From Spirochaetota bacterium (GTDB taxonomy: Bacteria; Spirochaetota; Spirochaetia; Treponematales; UBA12059): a stretch of DNA of 32,501 nt. Location: contig JAIFMD010000024.1 of assembly GCA_020048755.1 (NCBI GenBank), forward strand, positions 1 through 32,501, read 5' to 3'. A program made the position numbers and the translations under genes. Below the pieces are notes generated by a model. That model was given only the letters and a program-made list of their open reading frames with translations, was not told the DNA's origin and did no database searches. Positions 1,141-22,691 of the stretch are shown here, piece by piece (positions within the stretch are counted from its first letter, which is position 1; every line of letters begins with the position of its first letter).

Positions 1141-1719
1141 TTAGTCCCCTCGCGTATATCCAACACCTCTAAGGTCCAGACGGGGCTTGAGCTCGATAAT
1201 TTCAAGGGCATTATCTATGGCAGCCAGCACAGCCGGCCCCTTGTTGGACGCCAGGAACACAGGCTTGCTGATCGGGATGGATGGCACCGGCAATCCGGTC
1301 ATCACTACGAGTGACGATACCCCCTCAAACGATGCAGCAAGACCCGCCGCGAGAGGAATACAATCATCGCAGGAGACGACGCAGGCAGAGCAGATTCCCC
1401 TCTGCTCCAGAGCAATCTGTATCGGAACGATGAGTCCCTCGACGCCCCCGAGTTCTTCCAGTCTCTGGTCGTTTATCAGAAACGCGATGACCCGGGGCCT
1501 GGATGGGCTGGTCTGCAATACCGTCGGCTCGTACGGCTCGAACAAAGCCTTGCGGGCAACAATGACTGCTGCGGTATCACCGGATCCCTTGTCGACGATC
1601 TCGAAAATTGGCATCTGTTTTGAACTGGACGGCCTCGTCACATAGGCATCTTCAACCGGAACGGCCGACGCTGCCGCAACGAGAAACAGCGCGAGAAACA
1701 TGGCAAAAGCAGTCTTCAT
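1141..1719 (-). CDS. Exported cysteine-motif protein, paralog A (unknown function)
   Basis: This 192-residue protein has a clear signal peptide: Lys2, a hydrophobic core to about residue 17, and a likely cleavage after ASA. I do not recognise the family. The mature part has conserved blocks: GDTAAVIVARK near 47-57, RPRVIAFLIN near 74-83, and a cysteine cluster C110-x2-C113-x3-C117-x2-C120. The next leftward gene (2055-2636) encodes a close paralog that aligns almost without gaps through residue 150, with all four cysteines at identical positions. The start has a good ribosome binding site (GGGGAGG) eight bases upstream. The four cysteines could bind a metal or cluster or form disulphides; the sequence does not decide. 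The tandem pair lies beside a divergent SARP-type regulator, a possible controller. Confidence 0.8.
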   Translation of the reverse strand: MKTAFAMFLALFLVAAASAVPVEDAYVTRPSSSKQMPIFEIVDKGSGDTAAVIVARKALFEPYEPTVLQTSPSRPRVIAFLINDQRLEELGGVEGLIVPIQIALEQRGICSACVVSCDDCIPLAAGLAASFEGVSSLVVMTGLPVPSIPISKPVFLASNKGPAVLAAIDNALEIIELKPRLDLRGVGYTRGD

Positions 1720-1733
1720 ATAAGAACCTCCCC

Positions 1734-1746
1734 GGAAACGGTTTCC
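1734..1746. promoter_or_regulatory. Inverted repeat upstream of exported paralog A
   Basis: The 13-nt sequence GGAAAC-G-GTTTCC is a perfect inverted repeat 15 bases before the start of the gene ending at 1141, next to its ribosome binding site. It resembles LacI-type operators, but has an odd-length centre. Position and symmetry suggest an operator or a small hairpin in the 5' leader. No regulator is identified. Confidence 0.3.
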
Positions 1747-1963
1747 TCTGTTACTGAAAAATTCCCCGAAAAGTGCCTGTCTTTATGGATGCTCGATCAA
1801 GCCTCCACTCACTGGAACACGCATGAACTCCATGCTTGCTTCAGTGGACCGTTGATCGTATATTTATATGTATATCAAGATATCCATTCCGCCATAAAAC
1901 CATCTGCCTTCAGATATACATCCAGCGTCCCAGACCAGCGCGCATGCATACAAGGAGGTTGTC

Positions 1964-2044
1964 ATGAAAAACTGCGTGTATTCAGAACCGGAGCAGTCCG
2001 GGAAGAATTCCCGGACTGCTCCACCCCGATCACGTGTTTCATGA
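1964..2044 (+). CDS. Possible 26-residue small ORF overlapping a perfect hairpin
   Basis: An ATG at 1964 is preceded by AAGGAGG (1952-1958) at ideal spacing and opens a 26-codon frame beginning MKNCVYSEPEQSG and ending at TGA 2042-2044. The coding stretch contains the perfect 13-bp hairpin at 1990-2022, and its stop lies within a second hairpin. It runs rightward, against the flanking genes. It could be a small protein, a leader peptide, or chance beneath a structured RNA. No homolog is recognised. Confidence 0.3.
   Translation: MKNCVYSEPEQSGKNSRTAPPRSRVS
1990..2022. repeat. Perfect 13-bp inverted repeat with 7-nt loop
   Basis: GGAGCAGTCCGGG (1990-2002) pairs exactly with CCCGGACTGCTCC (2010-2022) around the loop AAGAATT. 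It lies 32 bases beyond the stop of the leftward gene at 2055, so it may end or stabilise that transcript. Neither strand has an immediate T run, so it is not a classic intrinsic terminator. Confidence 0.6.
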
Positions 2045-2054
2045 ACACGTTGAT

Positions 2055-2636
2055 TCATCTGGGAATGAACCCGCCCACCCTCCTTACAAAAGGTTCAGGC
2101 GATTCGAGTTCAATGATGTGCAATGCACTGTCAATCGACGCAAGGAGCGAGCCAGGTCCGCCGGATGCGATGAACACAGTCTTGGTGAAGGGTATAATCG
2201 GTGCGGGCAAGCTGGTCACCAGCACCAGTGAAGATACCATCTCGAGGGATTCAGCAAGCCTGGCAGCCACAGGGACGCAATCCTCACAGGAGACGACACA
2301 GGCCGTACAGAGGCCCTTCTGTTCCAATACCCCCGCTATGGGAACAGTCAACCCGTCAACACCTCCGAATGACTCAAGGGCCTGCCCATTGATCAGGAAC
2401 GCTATGACACGCGGTCTGGTTGCGCTGGTCGTCAGCACGGACTGCGCAAACGGTTTGAAAACCTCCTTGCGTGCGACAATCACCGCGGCAGTGTCACCCT
2501 CTCCAAGGTCGATAATCTCGACCGCAGATTCATCCTTGCTTCCTCGGTCGCTCGTCATGGGCCTGGCCTCGAAAGGCACGGCAACCACAGCAGAAACAAG
2601 GGCAAGCGCTACAAACAAAAACACCACCACCTTCAT
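2055..2636 (-). CDS. Exported cysteine-motif protein, paralog B (unknown function)
   Basis: This 193-residue paralog of the protein at 1141-1719 starts at the ATG at 2636. That start gives a signal peptide (Lys2, hydrophobic residues 3-19, likely cleavage after VVA) and a ribosome binding site, GGGAGG. The open frame continues further upstream, but that extension lacks family resemblance. Shared features are GDTAAVIVARK, RPRVIAFLIN, GGVDGL, and C110-x2-C113-x3-C117-x2-C120 within CTACVVSCEDC. The C-terminal 40 residues diverge most. The two genes form a tandem duplication, and retention of the cysteine spacing argues that the cluster is functional. The divergent BTAD regulator starts 120 bases away, so both may be controlled from the region 2637-2756. 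Confidence 0.8.
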   Translation of the reverse strand: MKVVVFLFVALALVSAVVAVPFEARPMTSDRGSKDESAVEIIDLGEGDTAAVIVARKEVFKPFAQSVLTTSATRPRVIAFLINGQALESFGGVDGLTVPIAGVLEQKGLCTACVVSCEDCVPVAARLAESLEMVSSLVLVTSLPAPIIPFTKTVFIASGGPGSLLASIDSALHIIELESPEPFVRRVGGFIPR

Positions 2637-2756
2637 CGATACACCTCCCGGGATCCATTCTCCCTCGTCCAATGATAGCGGTGGAACTGTTGCACAAACG
2701 TACCCCGACCGTGACGTCATCGTTACCTGCATACTATTCCGGAAAAAGCCGTGATC

Positions 2757-3554
2757 ATGAGTATCCTGCGTTTCAGGTTGCTTGGTGTTCCGTGCATGGA
2801 ACTCGACGACAAGCCGGTAAGGCCCGCACGCCGCAAGACCTCGGCGCTTCTGTACTATATTGCCGAGCATGGAACACCCTTGCAGCGGGGTTCTGCAGCG
2901 GGCCTCCTGTGGCCGGAATTCTCCCCGGAACAAGCCCGGGCAAACCTGCGCCGCTCGATCCAGGATGCCAACGAGGCAACCCAGTACCGGCTATTCGAGC
3001 CTGTCAGGGATGTGCTCAGGTTTTCCAGCCTGCTGACCGTGGAAGTAGACGTGCTCAGGTTCATGGAACTGGCGGCCCGAGGCCTTGGACGCCGCCTTGA
3101 GGAAGGCTTCGAGGAACTGCTCCAGGCGGCCAACCTCTACATGGGCGATTTCCTCTCCGGTTTCTACCTCAAGGACGCGCTGGAATTCGAGGACTGGCAG
3201 TTGGGACAGCTGGATTTTTATCGCCAGAAAGTGATCACCATTCTTGACAGGCTGGTCCGCGGCTACAGGGCAGAGGGCCGGTGGAACAGGGCGGAGGAAC
3301 TGGCAGAGCGCATGATCCGCTACGCCCCGCTTCACGAAGCGGGCCACAGGCACATCGTTGAAATGCTTGCGGACCGCGGAGAAACCAGTGCCGCGAGGGC
3401 TCATTTCAAAGTCTACGCAGCGACGCTTGAGAAGGAACTCGGAGCGAAACCCGAAGCGTCATTCGTAAATCTCTGCGAACAACTAAAAAACGGTATGTAT
3501 GTGCCGGTGCCACCACGGCTCTGGCCCGCTCGATTGACACCTCCCCGCCGCTGA
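2757..3554 (+). CDS. SARP/BTAD-family transcriptional regulator
   Basis: The first 75 residues look like the winged-helix DNA-binding domain of SARP/AfsR-type regulators: an LRFRLLG strand, an RRKTSALLYYIAEHG helix, LLWPEF and ARANLRR. The rest is a bacterial transcriptional activator domain of helical repeats, with DVLRF, YMGDFLSGFY, LEFEDW and a TPR-like HIVEMLADRGETSAARAHFKVYA region. There is no AAA+ or TPR extension, so this is the short stand-alone form. ATG 2757 is chosen; GTG 2751 in frame is an alternative. A TACTAT hexamer at 2732-2737 could be its -10 element. It is divergent from the exported paralogs and upstream of the solute-binding/kinase operon, either of which it might control. 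Confidence 0.75.
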   Translation: MSILRFRLLGVPCMELDDKPVRPARRKTSALLYYIAEHGTPLQRGSAAGLLWPEFSPEQARANLRRSIQDANEATQYRLFEPVRDVLRFSSLLTVEVDVLRFMELAARGLGRRLEEGFEELLQAANLYMGDFLSGFYLKDALEFEDWQLGQLDFYRQKVITILDRLVRGYRAEGRWNRAEELAERMIRYAPLHEAGHRHIVEMLADRGETSAARAHFKVYAATLEKELGAKPEASFVNLCEQLKNGMYVPVPPRLWPARLTPPRR

Positions 3555-3592: not shown

Positions 3593-4348
3593 ATGGGCAG
3601 GATGGCGGAACGGACTATCTTCTGTGTCTTCATCGGGCTGTTTACCGTGCTCATGCCGGCCTACTCCCAGCCCCGCATCGTCATGGTTACCGAGTCCTGG
3701 CCCCCGTTCCGTATCGATGACGACAAGGCACCCCAGAAGTTCTCGGGCATAGATATTGAAATCATATCCCGGCTGGAATCGGAACTGGGCATACGCATAG
3801 AGCTCCAGCGGCACCCCTGGGCACGGTCGCTGGAAATGCTGAGGGACGGGCAGGTGGACATGATCACCGGGGTAGCCTATTCAAGCGAACGGGCAGTGTA
3901 CATGGCCTATGTCCCCACATCATACGCGGCGGTACAACCGGTATTCTACAGCAGAAAGGGCCGGGGCAGCCTCGTAAAAACCTATGAAGACCTGCGCGGA
4001 AAGTCCATAGGACAATCAATACGGTCGTTGTACTTTGAACCCTACAATTCAGATACCAGCCTGAATAAAGTAGACCTGAGCACGGAACCACAGATCATCA
4101 AGATGCTCGCACTCGGCCGGCTGGACCTGGCCATCGGCACCGACCCGAACATAGCATGGGACATAGCGCAGCTCGGACTGCGTGATTCGCTTGAACACAC
4201 GGCATATACTCCATCAGCCAAAACCGAGCTGTTCATAGCGTTTTCCAGAAAATCAAAAGCCCTCGGACTCATTGATGCCATGAATGCAGCGATAGTCAGA
4301 ATGAAAAAAGATGGCACGATAGACGCTATCATTGCCTCATACCGGTAA
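3593..4348 (+). CDS. Periplasmic solute-binding protein, family 3 (amino-acid type)
   Basis: This 251-residue protein has a signal peptide (cleavage probably after AYSQ near residue 26) and the family 3 fold. The mature start VMVTESWPPFRI is followed by FSGIDIEIISRLESELG, the first-lobe motif, then DGQVDMITG, YEDLRGKSIG and a final lobe ending KKDGTIDAI. Such proteins bind amino acids or similar small polar ligands. No permease or ATPase gene is adjacent. Instead it is followed nine bases later by a sensor kinase and a c-di-GMP-type output protein. The context therefore suggests a ligand sensor presenting its cargo to the kinase rather than a transport component. Ligand unknown. Confidence 0.85.
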   Translation: MGRMAERTIFCVFIGLFTVLMPAYSQPRIVMVTESWPPFRIDDDKAPQKFSGIDIEIISRLESELGIRIELQRHPWARSLEMLRDGQVDMITGVAYSSERAVYMAYVPTSYAAVQPVFYSRKGRGSLVKTYEDLRGKSIGQSIRSLYFEPYNSDTSLNKVDLSTEPQIIKMLALGRLDLAIGTDPNIAWDIAQLGLRDSLEHTAYTPSAKTELFIAFSRKSKALGLIDAMNAAIVRMKKDGTIDAIIASYR

Positions 4349-4356
4349 GGGGCAGC

Positions 4357-6093
4357 GTGGAACACACTCCGGCACTTCAAACCCGACGTCGGCGCAAACT
4401 ACTGACTGTAGTCCAGAACCTGACGCTCCTCATATCGACCGCCATCGTGCTGACCGTGCAGATAGCCATGCTTGCGATAACCTCCATGATAATGATCGAC
4501 GACCTCATCAAGAAATCAGTCGTAACGGCCGACGAGATGCAGGACCTGCTCGCTGAACCGCTGTACAACCTGGACGATTCACAGGTCATCCGCATAGGAG
4601 ACGCGCTCATATCCTCGGGCAGGATATCAGGCATGACGGTGGATTCAGCAGCATCCGGCATATTGTACGACAGGCAAACCCATGAAGGATCATCCTCCAT
4701 ACCCAGCCTTACCAGGAAAATAGAATACAAGGGATTCCACCTCGGTACCGTGGACCTGGTTTTCAGCGACATCGAGGTCATCCTGACCAGGCGGCGGTTG
4801 ATGACGGTCATGGCATTCATAGTCGCTGCGGTGGTCATTGCAAACCTGCTCGCGAACAGCCTGATAGTACGGAAACGGGTAGCTTCACCGATCGCCGCGA
4901 TAATACAGGGTATCGACGCCGTAGCAGCAGGAAAATATAATTCCGTGATTCCCGTGACAGGATTCACCGATGTTGATTCAATCATTATGCTTGTCAACGA
5001 CATGGCCAGCAAGGTTCAAACCAAGAACATCGAGCTGAAGACCCTGAACGACTCGCTCGAGCGCAGGGTGGAAGCACGCACGGCGGAACTCAAGGTATCA
5101 CTCGAAAACCTGGGACTTGCCCAGGACAGGCTCATTGAATCAAGCAGGCTTACGGCGCTGGGTAGACTCTCCGCCAGCATAGCCCATGAACTCAACACAC
5201 CGCTGGGAGCTATCCTTTCATCAACATCAGGGCTGTCGACCTATCTCGATGGTTCGCTCCAGGATGGCGTGACAACTGCCCGCGCACTGACTGACGACCA
5301 GGCGATACTGTACAATTCCGTCGTCGCTGCAGCAGCTCCGTTGAGTGTCAATCTGGAACTACCGCCTTCTGGTTATAAAATGCTTTCAAACGTACGGATG
5401 CAGGCAACGGAAGCCGGACTTGCTGACAGCAACTCCATCGCGGAAAGCCTGATGGATATGGGCATTGCGGCCCGCTTCTCCGACATCTCGGAAAGTCTGA
5501 AGATTCAAGGTGCGGCGGCTGTGCTGGACAGGGCCGCACGGGATATTGCTGCCCGCCGTATGGCGGAGATCATCGATGTCGCGGCACGCAAGGCGGCCAG
5601 CGTGGTAAGCGCACTCCGCTCGTATCTGAGCCCCGACAGCAACAACCTGAATCAGAGAATTGAAATAGACAGGGAACTCGACAAGGTCCTCGTGCTGATG
5701 AACAGCCTGCTCAGGCAAGGCGTTACCGTGCAGCGAGAATACTCCGCCGGTTTCATTCTGGGTTCACCGGAACAACTGTCGCAAGTCTGGATGAACCTCA
5801 TCCGCAACGCACTGCAGGCGATGGAGTACAGCGGCACACTGACGCTCCGCACGGTTTTCGATGACAAACATGCAACCGTTTCAATCATCGATACCGGCTC
5901 TGGCATTCCCGATGAAGTGCGGAACCGGATCTTTGACCCGTTCTTCTCAACGAAGCAGCATGGCGAAGGCATGGGGCTCGGACTCGATATATGCCTGAAG
6001 ATCGTTGAATCACACAAGGGTACAATAGTCGTGGACTCAAGGCCCGGACACACCGAATTTGCCGTCATACTGCCAGTAGCAGGGGCATCATGA
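4357..6093 (+). CDS. Membrane sensor histidine kinase with HAMP domain
   Basis: This 578-residue kinase uses a GTG start. Transmembrane segments at about 17-47 and 148-170 flank a roughly 100-residue periplasmic sensor. A HAMP domain (about 171-225) leads to a coiled coil (about 222-265). The H box is SIAHELNTPLG with His277. Residues 300-400 form an atypical insertion before the rest of the helical domain. The ATPase domain has N484 in the N box, DTGSGIP at 512-518 and GMGLGL at 538-543. It should autophosphorylate His277 and pass phosphate to the receiver encoded four bases into its own 3' end. The periplasmic part could dock the solute-binding protein encoded just upstream. Confidence 0.85.
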   Translation: MEHTPALQTRRRRKLLTVVQNLTLLISTAIVLTVQIAMLAITSMIMIDDLIKKSVVTADEMQDLLAEPLYNLDDSQVIRIGDALISSGRISGMTVDSAASGILYDRQTHEGSSSIPSLTRKIEYKGFHLGTVDLVFSDIEVILTRRRLMTVMAFIVAAVVIANLLANSLIVRKRVASPIAAIIQGIDAVAAGKYNSVIPVTGFTDVDSIIMLVNDMASKVQTKNIELKTLNDSLERRVEARTAELKVSLENLGLAQDRLIESSRLTALGRLSASIAHELNTPLGAILSSTSGLSTYLDGSLQDGVTTARALTDDQAILYNSVVAAAAPLSVNLELPPSGYKMLSNVRMQATEAGLADSNSIAESLMDMGIAARFSDISESLKIQGAAAVLDRAARDIAARRMAEIIDVAARKAASVVSALRSYLSPDSNNLNQRIEIDRELDKVLVLMNSLLRQGVTVQREYSAGFILGSPEQLSQVWMNLIRNALQAMEYSGTLTLRTVFDDKHATVSIIDTGSGIPDEVRNRIFDPFFSTKQHGEGMGLGLDICLKIVESHKGTIVVDSRPGHTEFAVILPVAGAS

Positions 6094-7115
6094 AAAGGGA
6101 ACATATAATCTGTGTCGACGATGAGGTCGTCGTATTGCAGAGCCTCAGGCAGGAGCTGAAGAACGACCCGTTCTTCAGAAATGTGGATGTAGACCTGGCC
6201 GACAACGGAACAAGAGCGCTGGATCTCGTACAGGAAATCATTGGCTCGGGTGATTCCGTTCCGCTTATCATAAGCGACCAGAGGATGCCCAGGATGACCG
6301 GCGACGCACTCCTGGCTGAAATCCACAGACTCCTGCCAGACTCCATGAATATATTGCTTACCGGCTATTCCGATATCGAGGCTGTGATAAAGCTCGTCAA
6401 CGCGGGAGCCCTCTACCGATACCTCTCCAAGCCGTGGGACAGGCACGACCTGCTCCTGACGGCTCGGGAAGCACTGTTTGCGAACCGCCAGAAACTACTC
6501 ATTCAGAGACTCAACAAGAAGATAGAAAACCTGACCCTGGCCATGGTATCCGCCCTTGAAAGCGCCAACCTCTACTTTGATGAGGAGACCGGAGCACACA
6601 TCAGGCGAATCGCGTCCATTTCAGGCTATATAGCCAGAAAGGCCGGTCTGGATGATGAGTTCGTACGGCTCATAGAGCTGTACTCTCCGCTTCATGATAT
6701 CGGCAAGATTGGCATTGCCAAGGAAATCCTGCTCAAACCTGCAAAACTGTCGGGGGAGGAGTTCGAACACATCAAGGAGCACGTGAACATTGGATACCGT
6801 ATCCTCGAAAACGATGGAATTGAACAAATGGCCAAGAACATCGTGCAGTACCACCATGAGAAGTGGGAAGGCTCAGGGTACACCAAGTCGCTTTCGGGTG
6901 AGGATATTCCCGTTGAAGCCAGGATAGTCTCCATAGCTGACGTGTTCGATGCATTGACACATAAACGGGTTTACAAGCCAGCGTACTCACAGACTGAAGC
7001 GATGTTCCTGCTCAAGGAAGGCCGCGGAACGAATTTTGACCCCCACCTCGTGGATATCTTCCTTGACGGGCTCGCATCCGCAGAATATCCAGGAAGCATG
7101 GCCGGAGCGCGCTGA
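6090..7115 (+). CDS. Response regulator with HD-GYP phosphodiesterase domain
   Basis: The start overlaps the kinase stop (ATGA), implying translational coupling. Residues 1-125 are a receiver domain: acidic pair D10/D11, phosphoacceptor D63 in SDQRMP, conserved Lys114. Residues 145-330 are an HD-GYP domain with H170, HD at 202-203 in LHDIGKIGI, HH at 255-256, GSGY at 261-264 and D284 in IADVFDALT. HD-GYP enzymes hydrolyse cyclic di-GMP using a two- or three-metal centre, lowering the messenger that favours sessile life. The GYP motif reads GYT here, a tolerated change. The output of the upstream binding protein and kinase is thus probably c-di-GMP breakdown, relevant to motility. Confidence 0.9.
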   Translation: MKREHIICVDDEVVVLQSLRQELKNDPFFRNVDVDLADNGTRALDLVQEIIGSGDSVPLIISDQRMPRMTGDALLAEIHRLLPDSMNILLTGYSDIEAVIKLVNAGALYRYLSKPWDRHDLLLTAREALFANRQKLLIQRLNKKIENLTLAMVSALESANLYFDEETGAHIRRIASISGYIARKAGLDDEFVRLIELYSPLHDIGKIGIAKEILLKPAKLSGEEFEHIKEHVNIGYRILENDGIEQMAKNIVQYHHEKWEGSGYTKSLSGEDIPVEARIVSIADVFDALTHKRVYKPAYSQTEAMFLLKEGRGTNFDPHLVDIFLDGLASAEYPGSMAGAR

Positions 7116-12448: not shown

Positions 12449-13893
12449 TCAATAGTGCAGTTTCTCGAGGTTCCACAGACCCTGGGGGCTCAGCTCGACA
12501 CCCAGAAGCTTGCTGCTGGCGGCTACGATGTTGTTGCCCGTGTACAGGGGAACCCAGGTCGCGTCGGCCATGATGACATCGCTCATGTCATTGTAGATCT
12601 TCTGGCGCTTGGCCTGATCCAGTTCCACCCTGCCGGCGCACCGATGCTGCCCTTGCTGAAAAGCGGGGTAAGCATGGAATCCGGGTCGGGGTTGGAGCCC
12701 CAGCCGAGCAGGAATATGCCCTGGGTTCCGGAATTGGTAGCCTGGAGGTAAGCACCCCACTCGAACATCTCGATTTCGGCATTGACACCGATCTCACTCA
12801 GGTTGGCCTGTACGACTTCGGCAATTTTCTTCCTGGTGTCGCCTGAAGCCCACAGCTTGATGACCTGCTTGAAGTCGAATTTGGCTTCCTTGAGCAGGGC
12901 CTGTGCCTTTTTGGGGTCGTAGGAATAGGGACCGTCCTTGTGGCCAAAGATGGTGCTGGGGATGATGGAAGAAGCAACTTCACCGTAGCCGTTGAGTGCT
13001 ACGAGCACGACGGCATCCTTGTCTATGGCATAGTTGAAGGCCTGCCTGACCTTTATGTTGTCAAAGGGAGCTTTTTCAGCGTTCATGCCGATGTACTGGA
13101 TATCGGTGGAGGGCTTCTGGTACACCTTCAGCCTGGAATCCGCCGTGGCGCGTTTGACATCGTTGGAGTCGAGGCTGAGCACGACATCGACTTCTCCGGT
13201 CTCCAGGGCGATTGTCCTGCTGGTGGCCTCGGGGATGACCTTGAAAACCAGGCTGGAAGCCTGGGCCATGCCTGCCTTGTCATAATAGTTCGGGTTCTTC
13301 TTGAGGACAATCTTGTCGCCGGAGACCCACTGCACGAACTGGTAGGGACCAGAACCAATGGGATTCTTCCATTTGTCGGCGGAGCTGGCATATTTCTGGG
13401 GAACGATTGAAACACCGGCGTGGGCCAGGGTAAAGAGGAACGGCGCAAAAGCGACCTTGGTAGTCACCTTGACGGTATACTTGTCCACGACAGCGACGCT
13501 CTCGACTTCTGAAAGCACATGCTTGACCTTGGCAGATTCCCTGGAGCGGTCCATGCTGAATTTGACGTCGGCCGAGGTCATCTCGCTGCCATCATGGAAT
13601 TTTACGCCCTTCTTGATAGTGAACAACCACTCCTTGGCAGAAGGCTGTTTCCAGCTGGCAACGACATCCGGGACGACCTTGAAGCTCGTATCGAATTTGA
13701 ACAGGCGGTTGAACACCAGCAGCGATACCTTCTCTGAATAGATGTCGTTGTGGTCCATCGGGTCCAGGGACACAATGTCCGATGGAAGGGCAACAGTAAT
13801 CGTAGCAGGATCTGTTCCTGCAAACACGGGTGCTACCATTGCCATTGCAATGACAGCCAGGATCAAAGCCGCGTGAAGAATTTTCCTCTTCAT
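12449..13893 (-). pseudogene. Peptide ABC transporter substrate-binding protein (family 5), frame disrupted near the C-terminus
   Basis: The gene starts with an ideal AGGAGG site and a signal peptide ending VFA-GT. Family 5 features follow: ITVALPSDIVSLDPMDHND, WLFTIKKGVKFHDGSEMTSADVKFS, and GSGPYQFVQW. This frame stops at 12583 after GAPAGWNW, giving 436 residues. A second frame between about 12640 and 12449 carries the missing family C-terminus: QAKRQKIYNDMSDVIMADATWVPLY, then SPQGLWNLEKLHY. Compared with DppA-type proteins, roughly 15-20 residues are absent at the junction (about 12615-12640) as well as the frame change. So this is a small deletion, not just one base. The loss is either real inactivation or an assembly error. 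The protein would deliver peptides to the permeases encoded downstream. Confidence 0.85.
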
Positions 13894-18317: not shown

Positions 18318-21300
18318 ATGAACAATGCAGATACATTCATACTAGGACTGGATATAGGTTCAGTTACCCTGGCTGCCGCCACCGTCGATGAGCACGGAAC
18401 GACGCGGGGCAGGCTGTACGTCACGCACGGCGGCGACCTAGCGTCGGCACTCGCCAGGGTGGACGCGGAGCTGGACCTGTCCGGGGTCCGCGCCGTAGCA
18501 CTGACAGGCAGGCAACTGGCCGAGCTCACCGCGGACGCGCGCTTCGAATCCCAGGTGGCATCCCTGGAATCAGTGCGCGCGCGCCATCCTGAGGCAGGCG
18601 CCGTGCTGATAGTAGGCGGCGAGAAGTACTCGCTGGCACGGTTCAACGCAAACGGTGAATACGAGGGCAGCCGCTCCAATTCGGGATGCGCCGCAGGCAC
18701 GGGCAGTTTCCTTGACCAGCAGGCCGGCCGCCTCGGTCTGGCCAGTTCCGCCGAGCTGTCTGCACTTGCGCTGGACAATCCCGGGGAGCCGCCCAGAGTG
18801 GCAACCCGTTGCGCCGTGTTCGCCAAGACAGACCTCATACACGCCCAGCAGGAAGGCTACTCCCTGGCAGCCATCAGCGACGGGCTCTGCCGAGGCCTCG
18901 CGCGCAACCTCGTAGACGCGCTCTTCAGCGGCGAACCGGTTCGCGGCCCGGTGGTGTTTTCAGGCGGCGTAGCCCTGAATGACGCGGTGCTGTCCCGGGT
19001 GCGCACCATCACGGGCCTCGAACTGGTACGCGACGAGGAAGCACCCTGGCACGGAGCCATCGGCGCGGCCCTGCTGTTCCTGCGCGAAGGCAAGGCCGGA
19101 CAGCCGTTCGTTTCCGCATCAGCCCTGCGCACGGAACTACCGCTGGACAGGGACGGCTTCTATCCACCGCTGGCCCTCACGCACTCCAGGTACCCGGATT
19201 TCGCCGCGCACGAGAGCTATCGCGAACCCACGCGTGAACGCGGCGGGCGGCCAGGCCTGGTCGTCGAGGTGGACGTGTACCAGAACGCTCCTGCAGCCCT
19301 CGACGCATGGCTGGGGATAGACATAGGTTCGACGAGCACCAAGGCCGCGCTTGTCGACTCCAGCGGCCGCATGGTGGCCGGCTTCTACACGCGCACCTCA
19401 GGCCGCCCCGTGGAGGCCTTCCAGTCGCTGCTCGAGTCAATGGAGAAACTCGGGGAACGCAAGGGCTTCAGCCTGAACATCCTTGGTTGCGCTACCACCG
19501 GCTCCGGACGCAAATTCGTGGGCGGCATAGCCGGCGCAGACCTGGTGCTCGACGAGATCAGCGCCCACGCCCGCGCAGCCGTGGAGCTGGACCCCAGGGT
19601 AGACACCATCATCGAGATAGGCGGGCAGGACTCCAAGTTCACTACGCTACGGGACGGCAGGGTTACCTCGTCGATAATGAACAATGTCTGCGCGGCAGGC
19701 ACCGGCAGCTTCATAGAGGAGCAGGCGCGCAAGCTCGGCATCGATGTGGGCGACTATGCGGCCCTCGCCGACGGTGTGCGGGCCCCACAGGTCAGCGACC
19801 GCTGCACCGTGTTCATGGAACGCGACATCAACCACCTGCTGGCCTCCGGCTGCACCGTCCCCGAGGTGCTCGCCGCGGCCCTGCACGCGGTGCGGGAAAA
19901 CTACCTCCGCAAGGTTGCCAGCGAGAAGAACATAGGCCGAGTCGTATTCTTCCAGGGAGCCACCGCCAAGAACCGTTCCCTCGTGGCTGCCTTTGAACAG
20001 AAACTCGGCCGACCCATACTCGTCTCGCCCTTCTGCCACCTGACCGGTGCCCTCGGCGCTGCGCTGACCCTGCGTGACGAAGTAGCCTTCCGCAGCGACA
20101 TCGCGCGCGGCGACGGCCCAACGACCGCCTTCCGCGGCACCGGGTTGCACCGCATCGAACTGCCCGTGCGCAGCGAGGTCTGCGACCTGTGCGGCAACCA
20201 CTGCAAGCTCTCGGTAGCAACGGTAGACGGCGAGGAGGTAGCCTTCGGCTTCCTCTGCGGCCGGGACTGGGCCACCAAATCGTTCGTGGCCAGAAAGCCA
20301 GGACCGCCCAGGCTGGCCGCCCTGCGCGCCGGTGCCGAGAACGCGGCACGAACGGCCCTGCCGGCCTTGGCCACCGCCACCATGGCCGCGGCAGGCAAGG
20401 CACCTGCACTTACTATAGGCCTGCCCTCGGCTCTGTCCCTGGTCGAGGATATGGGTTTCTGGAAGGTGTTCTTCAATGCGCTTGGACTGAAAACAGTCGA
20501 GAGCGAAAACCGCACCGACATGGTAGCCACCGGCAAGGAGCAGATGGGTGCAGAGTTCTGCGCCCCGATAGCGGCCTTCCACGGGCACGTGCTGTCCCTG
20601 CTGGACAAGGCGGATTTCGTGTTCGTGCCTGTGTACCTTGAAAAGAAGACGGAGAAGGACAAGGGCAGCCGGCTGTACTGCTATCAGACCCAGTTTGCCT
20701 CCACCCTCGTAGCAAAACTCGCTGACCGTAGCCGCTTCCTCCAGCCCATGGTGGAATCAAGCTATACGAGCTTCCGCGTCAAGGAAGAGCTTTTCCGCTG
20801 CCTGAACGGTACGGCGCAACTGCCACTGACCCGCAATGCCGTGTCTGAAGCCTGGGACCGTGCCGAGCGCTTCCGGGCCGAACGCGGGCTACGCCTCAAG
20901 GCCCTGTTCGCCGACAGGAAACCGGCCCTTTCCGGGAAAAAACCTGGCATTGAAGTCGTGCTCCTCGGAAGGCCCTATTCGGTGCTGCCATCAGGCATGA
21001 ACAAGGGCATACCCGACATGCTGGCCGACCGCGGCGTGCCGGCCTGGTACCAGGACATGCTCGAACCAACGCCTGAAGCCAGGTCAATGATACAGCCACT
21101 TCTCCGGGAGATCCCGTGGGAATACGGCAAGCGCATACTGGAGGCCGCAGAGACGGTGGCGCGGACCGAAGGCCTCTACCCCACCCTTGTCACCTCGTTC
21201 AAGTGCGGCCCGGACTCCTTCGTCGTAGACGCGTTCAAGTCGGTGATGGAGACCTACGGCAAGCCCTTCCTCATCCTGGAACTGGACGAACACGACAGTG

Positions 21301-22691
21301 CCGTGGGCTACGAGACGCGCATCGAGGCAGCCATCCGCGCGTTCCGCAACCACCACGAGCGTTCTGCCGCATTCAAACCGGCAACCGGGCTCACCATCAG
21401 GGATTTCTCCCGCGTCAACCCGCATTACAACACGACACTCAAGGGCAAGACCATGCTGATGCCCAACTGGGACGACCTTGCTGCCCCGCTGCTCGCCGCG
21501 ACGCTGCGTGCGGCCGGCGTCGATGCCGTCGTCATGGAGGAAACCGACGAGACCATCCGCCAGAGTGTGTCCACCAACAACGGCCAGTGCCTGCCCCTCA
21601 ACGCCATAGCCCAGTCGTTCGCGCATACGGTGCGCAAGCACGGCCTCGACCCGGCCAGGTGCGTGCTGTGGATGGCCCGGTCGACCCTGCCATGCAACAT
21701 CCCGCTTTACCCGCACCAGATAAAGACCATCTTCAACGGCATGGGTGGCGGCTTCGAGCACTCCCTGGTCTATGTCGGCCAGGTATCCTTCCTGGACATC
21801 TCGCCGCACGCCGCCATAGACGCCTACCTGTCATACCTGTTCGCAGGCCTCATCAGGCGGCTTTCGTGCCGGATACGGCCCTACGAACTGGTACCCGGCA
21901 GCACCGATGCCGCCACGACACGGGCCATGGAGATCCTCGTACCCGCGTTCGACGACAGGAAGCGCAACAAGGTCAAGGCGGCCGAGGACATCGTGGCCCT
22001 GTTCGAGGCCATAGCCTGGGACAGGAGCCGCCGCAATCCACTGGTCTCGCTGTTCGGGGATTTCTACGTGCGCGACAACAAGGTGATGAACCAGGACGCC
22101 ATCCGGTTCATAGAAGAGAACGGCGGAGAGGTTATTTCGATGCCGTACAACCAGTACGCCAAGATGATCTCCACCACCTACTTCTCGCGCTGGGTCAAAG
22201 AAGGCAAATACGGCATTTTCCTGACCACCTCGGCCCTCATGGCAGCCTCGAAGGTTTTGGAAAGAGCCTACTACCGCGCATTTGACCGCCTGCTCGAGGA
22301 AACCAATCCGGAGTTCGACGATCCGGCCAAAGACATCCTGGCCCGCTACGGCGTCCTCGAGGAGAACTCGGGTGAATCGGCCGAGAACCTGCTCAAGACC
22401 TGGTACATAAAGAAGCACTTTCCCGACGTGTCGCTGTTCGTGCAGCTCAGCCCCGTCTTCTGCTGCGCGGGCATGGTCACCGAGGCCATGAACGCCCAGA
22501 TCGAAGAGGTGACGGGCGTGCCGGTCCTCTCGCTGACCTACGACGGCGCGGGTGGATCAAAGAACGAGGCACTGGCACCCTATCTGCGTTACCCCAGGAA
22601 GCCGCGGCAGGCGGGTTCAGCCTTCCAGCCAGAACATCTCCATGGGACCGGCACCCTTGACCTCGATGGAGCCGCGGGGAACGCAAGCTAG
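18318..22691 (+). CDS. Giant CoA-substrate dehydratase activase (BadF/BcrA-HgdC ATPase repeats plus DUF2229 region)
   Basis: This 1457-residue protein has two ASKHA ATPase modules. The first begins GLDIGSVTLAA and has NSGCAAGTGSF with Cys124. The second begins GIDIGSTSTKAAL near residue 332 and has NNVCAAGTGSF with Cys458. The cysteines of such modules hold the [4Fe-4S] cluster shared across the dimer. A further CDLCGNHC motif at 622-629 precedes a DUF2229/HgdB-like C-terminal half. Activases of the 2-hydroxyacyl-CoA dehydratase and benzoyl-CoA reductase type use ATP hydrolysis to send an electron to a partner enzyme. No partner dehydratase is in the window; the fused half may serve or bind one. 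The start follows GGAGG. The last 28 residues after RYPRK look non-conserved and overlap the convergent cyclase gene. Confidence 0.9.
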   Translation: MNNADTFILGLDIGSVTLAAATVDEHGTTRGRLYVTHGGDLASALARVDAELDLSGVRAVALTGRQLAELTADARFESQVASLESVRARHPEAGAVLIVGGEKYSLARFNANGEYEGSRSNSGCAAGTGSFLDQQAGRLGLASSAELSALALDNPGEPPRVATRCAVFAKTDLIHAQQEGYSLAAISDGLCRGLARNLVDALFSGEPVRGPVVFSGGVALNDAVLSRVRTITGLELVRDEEAPWHGAIGAALLFLREGKAGQPFVSASALRTELPLDRDGFYPPLALTHSRYPDFAAHESYREPTRERGGRPGLVVEVDVYQNAPAALDAWLGIDIGSTSTKAALVDSSGRMVAGFYTRTSGRPVEAFQSLLESMEKLGERKGFSLNILGCATTGSGRKFVGGIAGADLVLDEISAHARAAVELDPRVDTIIEIGGQDSKFTTLRDGRVTSSIMNNVCAAGTGSFIEEQARKLGIDVGDYAALADGVRAPQVSDRCTVFMERDINHLLASGCTVPEVLAAALHAVRENYLRKVASEKNIGRVVFFQGATAKNRSLVAAFEQKLGRPILVSPFCHLTGALGAALTLRDEVAFRSDIARGDGPTTAFRGTGLHRIELPVRSEVCDLCGNHCKLSVATVDGEEVAFGFLCGRDWATKSFVARKPGPPRLAALRAGAENAARTALPALATATMAAAGKAPALTIGLPSALSLVEDMGFWKVFFNALGLKTVESENRTDMVATGKEQMGAEFCAPIAAFHGHVLSLLDKADFVFVPVYLEKKTEKDKGSRLYCYQTQFASTLVAKLADRSRFLQPMVESSYTSFRVKEELFRCLNGTAQLPLTRNAVSEAWDRAERFRAERGLRLKALFADRKPALSGKKPGIEVVLLGRPYSVLPSGMNKGIPDMLADRGVPAWYQDMLEPTPEARSMIQPLLREIPWEYGKRILEAAETVARTEGLYPTLVTSFKCGPDSFVVDAFKSVMETYGKPFLILELDEHDSAVGYETRIEAAIRAFRNHHERSAAFKPATGLTIRDFSRVNPHYNTTLKGKTMLMPNWDDLAAPLLAATLRAAGVDAVVMEETDETIRQSVSTNNGQCLPLNAIAQSFAHTVRKHGLDPARCVLWMARSTLPCNIPLYPHQIKTIFNGMGGGFEHSLVYVGQVSFLDISPHAAIDAYLSYLFAGLIRRLSCRIRPYELVPGSTDAATTRAMEILVPAFDDRKRNKVKAAEDIVALFEAIAWDRSRRNPLVSLFGDFYVRDNKVMNQDAIRFIEENGGEVISMPYNQYAKMISTTYFSRWVKEGKYGIFLTTSALMAASKVLERAYYRAFDRLLEETNPEFDDPAKDILARYGVLEENSGESAENLLKTWYIKKHFPDVSLFVQLSPVFCCAGMVTEAMNAQIEEVTGVPVLSLTYDGAGGSKNEALAPYLRYPRKPRQAGSAFQPEHLHGTGTLDLDGAAGNAS

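Follow-up and report, generated by a model that had tools for sequence, protein, structure and literature searches.

Exported cysteine-bearing proteins of a spirochaete may be built on a lidless alpha/beta-hydrolase-like core

A stretch of 32,501 nucleotides from a Spirochaetota bacterium, the whole of which is called the window here, contains two adjacent genes for small exported proteins, P0001 and P0002, which adjoin a gene for a SARP-type regulator. We propose that these proteins, together with a third one (P0003) from the same genus, are cut-down alpha/beta-hydrolase-like cores that would have dispensed with the lid of this fold and would not act as conventional hydrolases. Their working site, situated outside the cytoplasm, would be the pair C117 and C120 with the invariant D119 that lies between them, and this C117-x-D-C120 element may be a thiol or a metal site. 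This reading leans on a predicted structure and we put its probability at about 0.5. A fuller version, in which an exported thiol or metal module sits on a lidless hydrolase scaffold that has no conserved histidine, with a CxxC in the place of the nucleophile, in a genus where neither DsbB nor VKOR was found and under SARP control, is unlikely. The features concerned are as follows.

1141..1719, minus strand: P0001, a 192-residue exported protein with cysteines at 110, 113, 117 and 120 and without histidine
1360..1392, minus strand: codons 110-120 of P0001, C-x2-C-x3-C-x2-C, on a predicted strand and the turn after it
1990..2022, no strand assigned: palindrome of 33 nt (perfect arms of 15 nt, spacer of 3 nt) between P0001 and P0002
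2055..2636, minus strand: P0002, a 193-residue exported paralog with cysteines at 110, 113, 117 and 120 and a single histidine (173)
2277..2309, minus strand: codons 110-120 of P0002, C-x2-C-x3-C-x2-C, from the sequence and the P0002 model
2751..3554, plus strand: SARP-type regulator of 267 residues with a BTAD domain, divergent from the pair and possibly its regulator

The two genes are arranged head to tail, separated by 335 bases that include the palindrome, and in both a GGGAGG stands shortly 5' of the ATG. Each product begins with a hydrophobic signal that ends, as judged by eye, in A-x-A followed by V-P. Aligned with a single gap, the two proteins share 57% identity across 188 columns, and neither has a cysteine other than the four given above. 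The original prediction, of tandem signal-peptide paralogs of 192 and 193 residues which align almost without gaps and have four cysteines at identical positions, thus agrees with what we find, including the coordinates and the order on one strand. Its wider suggestion of an exported cysteine-bearing family next to a SARP-type regulator is likewise supported: the product of 2751-3554 matches BTAD (PF03704) with an E of 5e-11 and 43.5 bits against a cut-off of 22.1.

Both genes look to be under purifying selection, an estimate that is rough and is drawn from dN 0.37 and dS 2.8 (NG86; dS is saturated) and from the excess of third-position changes (69, 43 and 119 differences at the three codon positions over 190 codons). 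The 33-nt palindrome is possibly a terminator or an operator; a terminator scan did not return it. Another palindrome, GGAAACGGTTTCC at 1735-1747, was noticed by eye just 5' of the ribosome site of P0001 and is possibly an operator. Searching the window for Rfam families and tRNAs yielded nothing useful. Convergent with P0001 is a FliG-like gene (31-1077), in whose product FliG_M and FliG_C are matched in residues 148-318 and the N-terminal part is unmatched.

P0003 (193 residues; L003:1408-1989, minus strand) is encoded in genome G057 and is 31-33% identical to P0001 and P0002. It has a glutamate at position 110, retains C113, C117, D119 and C120, and consequently has an odd number of cysteines. 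The four-cysteine motif, which had been called invariant, is therefore not so: in this sole further homolog the conservation looked for extends to three of the four cysteines and fails at C110. What is invariant across the three proteins is a three-cysteine core, in which C113 would be a buried core residue, whereas C110 may be an optional extra. Of the 188 ungapped columns in the three-protein alignment 44 are invariant, and these include D43-x-G-x-G-D48, V54-A-R-K57, P75-R-V77 and V115-x-C-x-D-C120, with C117, D119 and C120 the same in all three sequences. Histidine does not occur in P0001 or P0003 and the one in P0002 is hence not conserved. A bare CxxCxxxCxxC is weak evidence by itself, because the same pattern is also found in one other, out-of-frame reading frame of 67 residues in the window (2533-2733, minus strand); the weight rests instead on cysteines kept at identical places in diverged paralogs. 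By their titles, publications on the same motif spacing deal with surface and cyst proteins of Giardia, a metallothionein of Paramecium and a protein of mumps virus.

The only convincing carriers found are the window's own genome (G000), which is 65% complete and in which no copies besides P0001 and P0002 were found, and G057, both of the same genus. P0002 matched in 5 of the 390 genomes of the order and the three-protein profile in 4 of 390; P0001, with the loose limit of E <= 1, matched in 14 of 39 relatives. In the samples of the family (23 genomes), the class (394) and the phylum (392), matches were found in 2, 1 and 7 genomes respectively; these samples overlap with one another and with those of the order and the relatives, and G057 is without a match and is not listed in those of the class and the phylum. 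A scan of a genome collection returned one locus, JAHIWG010000014.1, from a Spirochaetes metagenome-assembled genome and of the same length (23,147) as the G057 contig, and P0002 had no match among plasmids and viral contigs. Everything that the samples of the order, the relatives and the phylum gave besides G000 and contig C114 of G057 was weak and was set aside: these matches had an E of 0.0016 or worse, were mostly short and in several cases had stop codons. Three of the weak matches were examined at the ORF level, and by eye the V-[ST]-C-x-D-C block was absent from the ORFs listed around them (G213, L073; G520, L057; G057:C100, L021). The pair thus consists of real, narrowly distributed exported proteins.

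The main support for a hydrolase-like fold is structural and not a matter of sequence. A trimmed model, made from residues 37-181 of P0002 plus two relatives (three sequences), had a pLDDT of 75.2 and a pTM of 0.74, with the cysteine-bearing blocks at 82-85; two of five such trimmed models had a pLDDT of at least 70 and the others lay between 45.6 and 50.2. The predicted succession of elements in P0002 is strand, strand, helix, strand, helix, strand, helix, strand, strand, helix, with only 12 residues at the position of the lid. This is the order of an alpha/beta-hydrolase core without its lid, and it is shared with AqdC, KAI2/D14, the haloperoxidase-type esterases and Pfam Abhydrolase_6. It comes from the trimmed predicted model; in the poor full-length model of P0001 (pLDDT 51.7) the succession is the same except that the opening strand and the closing helix are missing. 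Foldseek returned 80 PDB matches to the trimmed model at E <= 1e-3, the best 50 of which had a probability of 1.00 and an E of 4e-5 to 6e-4. From their titles we take these best 50 of the 80 to be alpha/beta-hydrolase proteins; three of them are designed cages, presumably bromoperoxidase fusions. With VIA-align the best Z was 11.7 (rmsd 3.0, 142 of 145 residues aligned).

This resemblance might be a side effect of a generic architecture, the proteins having a different fold of the three-layer alpha/beta class, be it Rossmann, DJ-1/PfpI or thioredoxin-like, in which the CxxC opens a helix. As many as 636 of the 1000 chains compared by VIA-align reach a Z of 8, and UPF0261 (Z 10.7) and PurE (Z 9.7), both of which we presume to be non-hydrolase folds, score near the best hydrolase chains with this better model. 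The full-length P0001 model had no Foldseek match at E <= 1e-3, its top matches being non-hydrolase, and its resemblance to Rossmann-like and other folds was weak, with a best Z of 4.3. The sequence support for a hydrolase is, moreover, weak or absent, as detailed below. On the other side are the best 50 of the 80 Foldseek matches, recognised by title as alpha/beta-hydrolases, and we consider a different fold doubtful, if still a serious competitor. Neither DJ-1/PfpI nor thioredoxin-like folds appear among those 50 or among the 50 VIA-align matches listed, which speaks neither for nor against these two folds. The placement of the invariant residues does not favour the hydrolase fold either: they occupy 9 of 26 strand-end positions against 38 of 142 positions, which is not a significant enrichment (p 0.22).

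At the level of sequence, searches of Pfam, NCBIfam and the PDB sequences gave nothing significant; the best E among PDB sequences, searched by single protein and by profile, was 0.54, and the sole hint was the alpha/beta-hydrolase model TIGR02427 of NCBIfam (E 0.032, residues 145-191 of P0002). The proteins had been said to belong to no recognisable family, and this holds for these three kinds of search, but the predicted fold is alpha/beta-hydrolase-like. Among the 172 long frames of 30 loci in the relatives' genomes, 20 had a GxSxG-like motif, and 19 of these (one duplicate being removed) formed a hydrolase HMM. Against this HMM P0002 scored above all 300 of its own shuffles, yet with an E of 0.55; 12 of 300 shuffles of P0003 and at least 146 of 300 of P0001 were equal to or better than the real protein. 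When the three proteins and the 900 shuffles were pooled, P0002 ranked 4, P0003 21 and P0001 504. These counts would slightly favour a hydrolase fold for P0002 and do not favour it for P0001. A second hydrolase profile, with the lid excised, consisted of eight frames after three of the 20 had been dropped for want of an HG motif, eight for want of a recognised beta7 motif and one as a duplicate. In profile-profile comparison with hydrolases the probabilities were 0.6% and 0.3%, and an equally high score was reached by 64 of 200 column shuffles; with three sequences such sequence tests have little power. Because the untrimmed model failed and the sequence-profile tests were weak or negative, we regard a hydrolase-like fold for P0001, P0002 and P0003 as likely, about two in three, and not as proven.

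Even if the fold is that of a hydrolase, the differences from the enzymes that share it are considerable. The chains of the 50 Foldseek matches listed have 226-441 residues, whereas the P0002 core has 145 and no lid; the pair is exported, has a cysteine block at the elbow and is similar to these enzymes in sequence weakly or not at all. In place of the GxSxG-type elbow of the catalytic members there is V-[ST]-C-[DEG]-D-C, and the catalytic histidine has no counterpart, since P0001 and P0003 have none and H173 of P0002 is not conserved. Ordinary hydrolysis by the three proteins is unlikely, given that no histidine is conserved. A precedent of a kind is offered by human NDRG1 and NDRG3, non-enzymatic alpha/beta-hydrolase proteins that kept the fold and lost the triad, and NDRG chains reach a Z of 10.0 in VIA-align; they are larger than the pair, and the portion of the literature on them that we drew upon describes no cysteine block.

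The catalytic nucleophile of the alpha/beta-hydrolase fold sits between a strand and the helix that follows it. In our model a strand is formed by residues 111-116 (block pLDDT 85) and a helix by 118-130, so that C117 falls between them. The old nucleophile elbow would then have become V-[ST]-C117-x-D119-C120, and its CxxC pair would open the helix after the strand. Either 117 or 118 may be the nucleophile's place: 117 is the only turn residue, which speaks for it, and the small neighbours speak for 118, which is D, E or G. Could C117 itself be a nucleophile, as in the cysteine hydrolases that we associate with dienelactone hydrolase? It is invariant and is the sole residue between the strand and the helix, just where that position rule would put it; nonetheless, the lack of any histidine in P0001 or P0003, together with the flanking residues that suit position 118 better, makes such an enzyme very unlikely.

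The original prediction had also entertained a single metal or Fe-S cluster held by CxxCxxxCxxC. Every cysteine of the three proteins does fall within one block, a glutamate in place of a cysteine may represent a change of ligand in P0003, and a genus in which DsbB and VKOR were not found would have room for free thiols or a metal. Against one centre for all four, the predicted strand 111-116 would part C110, at one of its ends, from C117 and C120 at the other, the first cysteine is lost in P0003, and neither Pfam nor NCBIfam has a metal or Fe-S family that matches. The x2-x3-x2 spacing of the pair differs, furthermore, from that of a ferredoxin-type 4Fe-4S or tetra-cysteine centre, for which the glutamate at 110 of P0003 is also out of place. 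We consequently disfavour this arrangement as unlikely.

A search for the two enzymes DsbB and VKOR found neither in eight genomes of the genus (five of them at least 90% complete, the window's own 65%), whereas among 14 control genomes DsbB was present in six and VKOR in three. Disulphides made by these enzymes are hence not indicated, and C117 and C120 could exist as free thiols, bind a metal or form a redox pair by another route; the site would serve as a thiol or redox switch, or hold a small ligand or a metal. The CxxC pairs and the narrow distribution would also suit a lineage-specific secreted protein with purely structural disulphides, C110-C113 and C117-C120, and no site function. With an odd number of cysteines in P0003 and no DsbB or VKOR found in any of the eight genomes, this seems to us improbable.

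A paper on clostridia (PMC12453122) states that obligate anaerobes tend to exclude cysteine from their exported proteins and that Leptospira spirochaetes use VKOR. By analogy, a cysteine block that is kept in exported proteins would be a pointer to function. Two substrate-binding proteins of the window, the other exported proteins examined, are free of cysteine past the signal region: one has a single cysteine at position 11 and the other has none as far as its frame runs. One gene for a substrate-binding protein (12583-13893, minus strand), beside oligopeptide-type ABC transporter genes, ends early; the likely C-terminal rest of its product is in another frame just downstream, which may be a frameshift, either real or due to the assembly. 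Farther on, 18318-22691 encodes 1457 residues that we take to be a fused protein of the acyl-CoA dehydratase activase/2-hydroxyglutaryl-CoA dehydratase type.

The regulator shares its BTAD domain with SARP and AfsR-like proteins, but at 267 residues it is without their ATPase and TPR parts. At E <= 1e-5 it has relatives in 5 of 39 genomes, its own included and G057 not; the other four matches fall near the N-terminus of AfsR-like frames that have 1,068-1,110 residues, and are 30-33% identical and of the same family. In the three of these four loci that were examined (G004, G015 and G026) the regulator is divergent from a gene for a small exported protein or lipoprotein of another family, which is DUF4440/SnoaL-like in G015, probably also in G026, where it resembles the G015 protein, and lipoprotein-like with no Pfam match in G004. 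This recurring layout with unrelated cargo supports by analogy, without proving it, a SARP control of the pair, and the divergent regulator probably governs both genes.

At L067 (about 5927-6993) and L068 (about 3793-4935), the AfsR-like regulator is divergent from an exported DUF4440/SnoaL-like protein (Pfam was run on L067 only), behind which is a second copy without a signal; the lipoprotein-like gene of G004 is at about 6721-7272 of L066. Next to P0003, a fragment of 36 residues (L022 7061-7168) outscored every one of 500 shuffles when compared with the regulators of L066 and L069, 499 of the 500 with that of L067 and 485 with that of L068, whereas for its region tblastn gave nothing below an E of 0.1 and Pfam nothing. 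We see in it a hint of an AfsR-type ATPase remnant. A search with the frame L022:7114-7704 brought up no useful relatives. A stretch at L022 7555-7701 (G057), upstream of a dehydrogenase-like gene, has 60% translated identity over about 49 residues to G045 C11:487852-487992 (E 2e-9); it may represent a conserved leader and not a coding sequence.

If the reading preferred here, that of a lidless and non-hydrolytic core with its site at C117 and C120, is true, an old enzyme scaffold would have been reused in exported proteins of bacteria in which DsbB and VKOR, the customary partners in disulphide formation, were not found, with cysteine standing where the catalytic residue had been.
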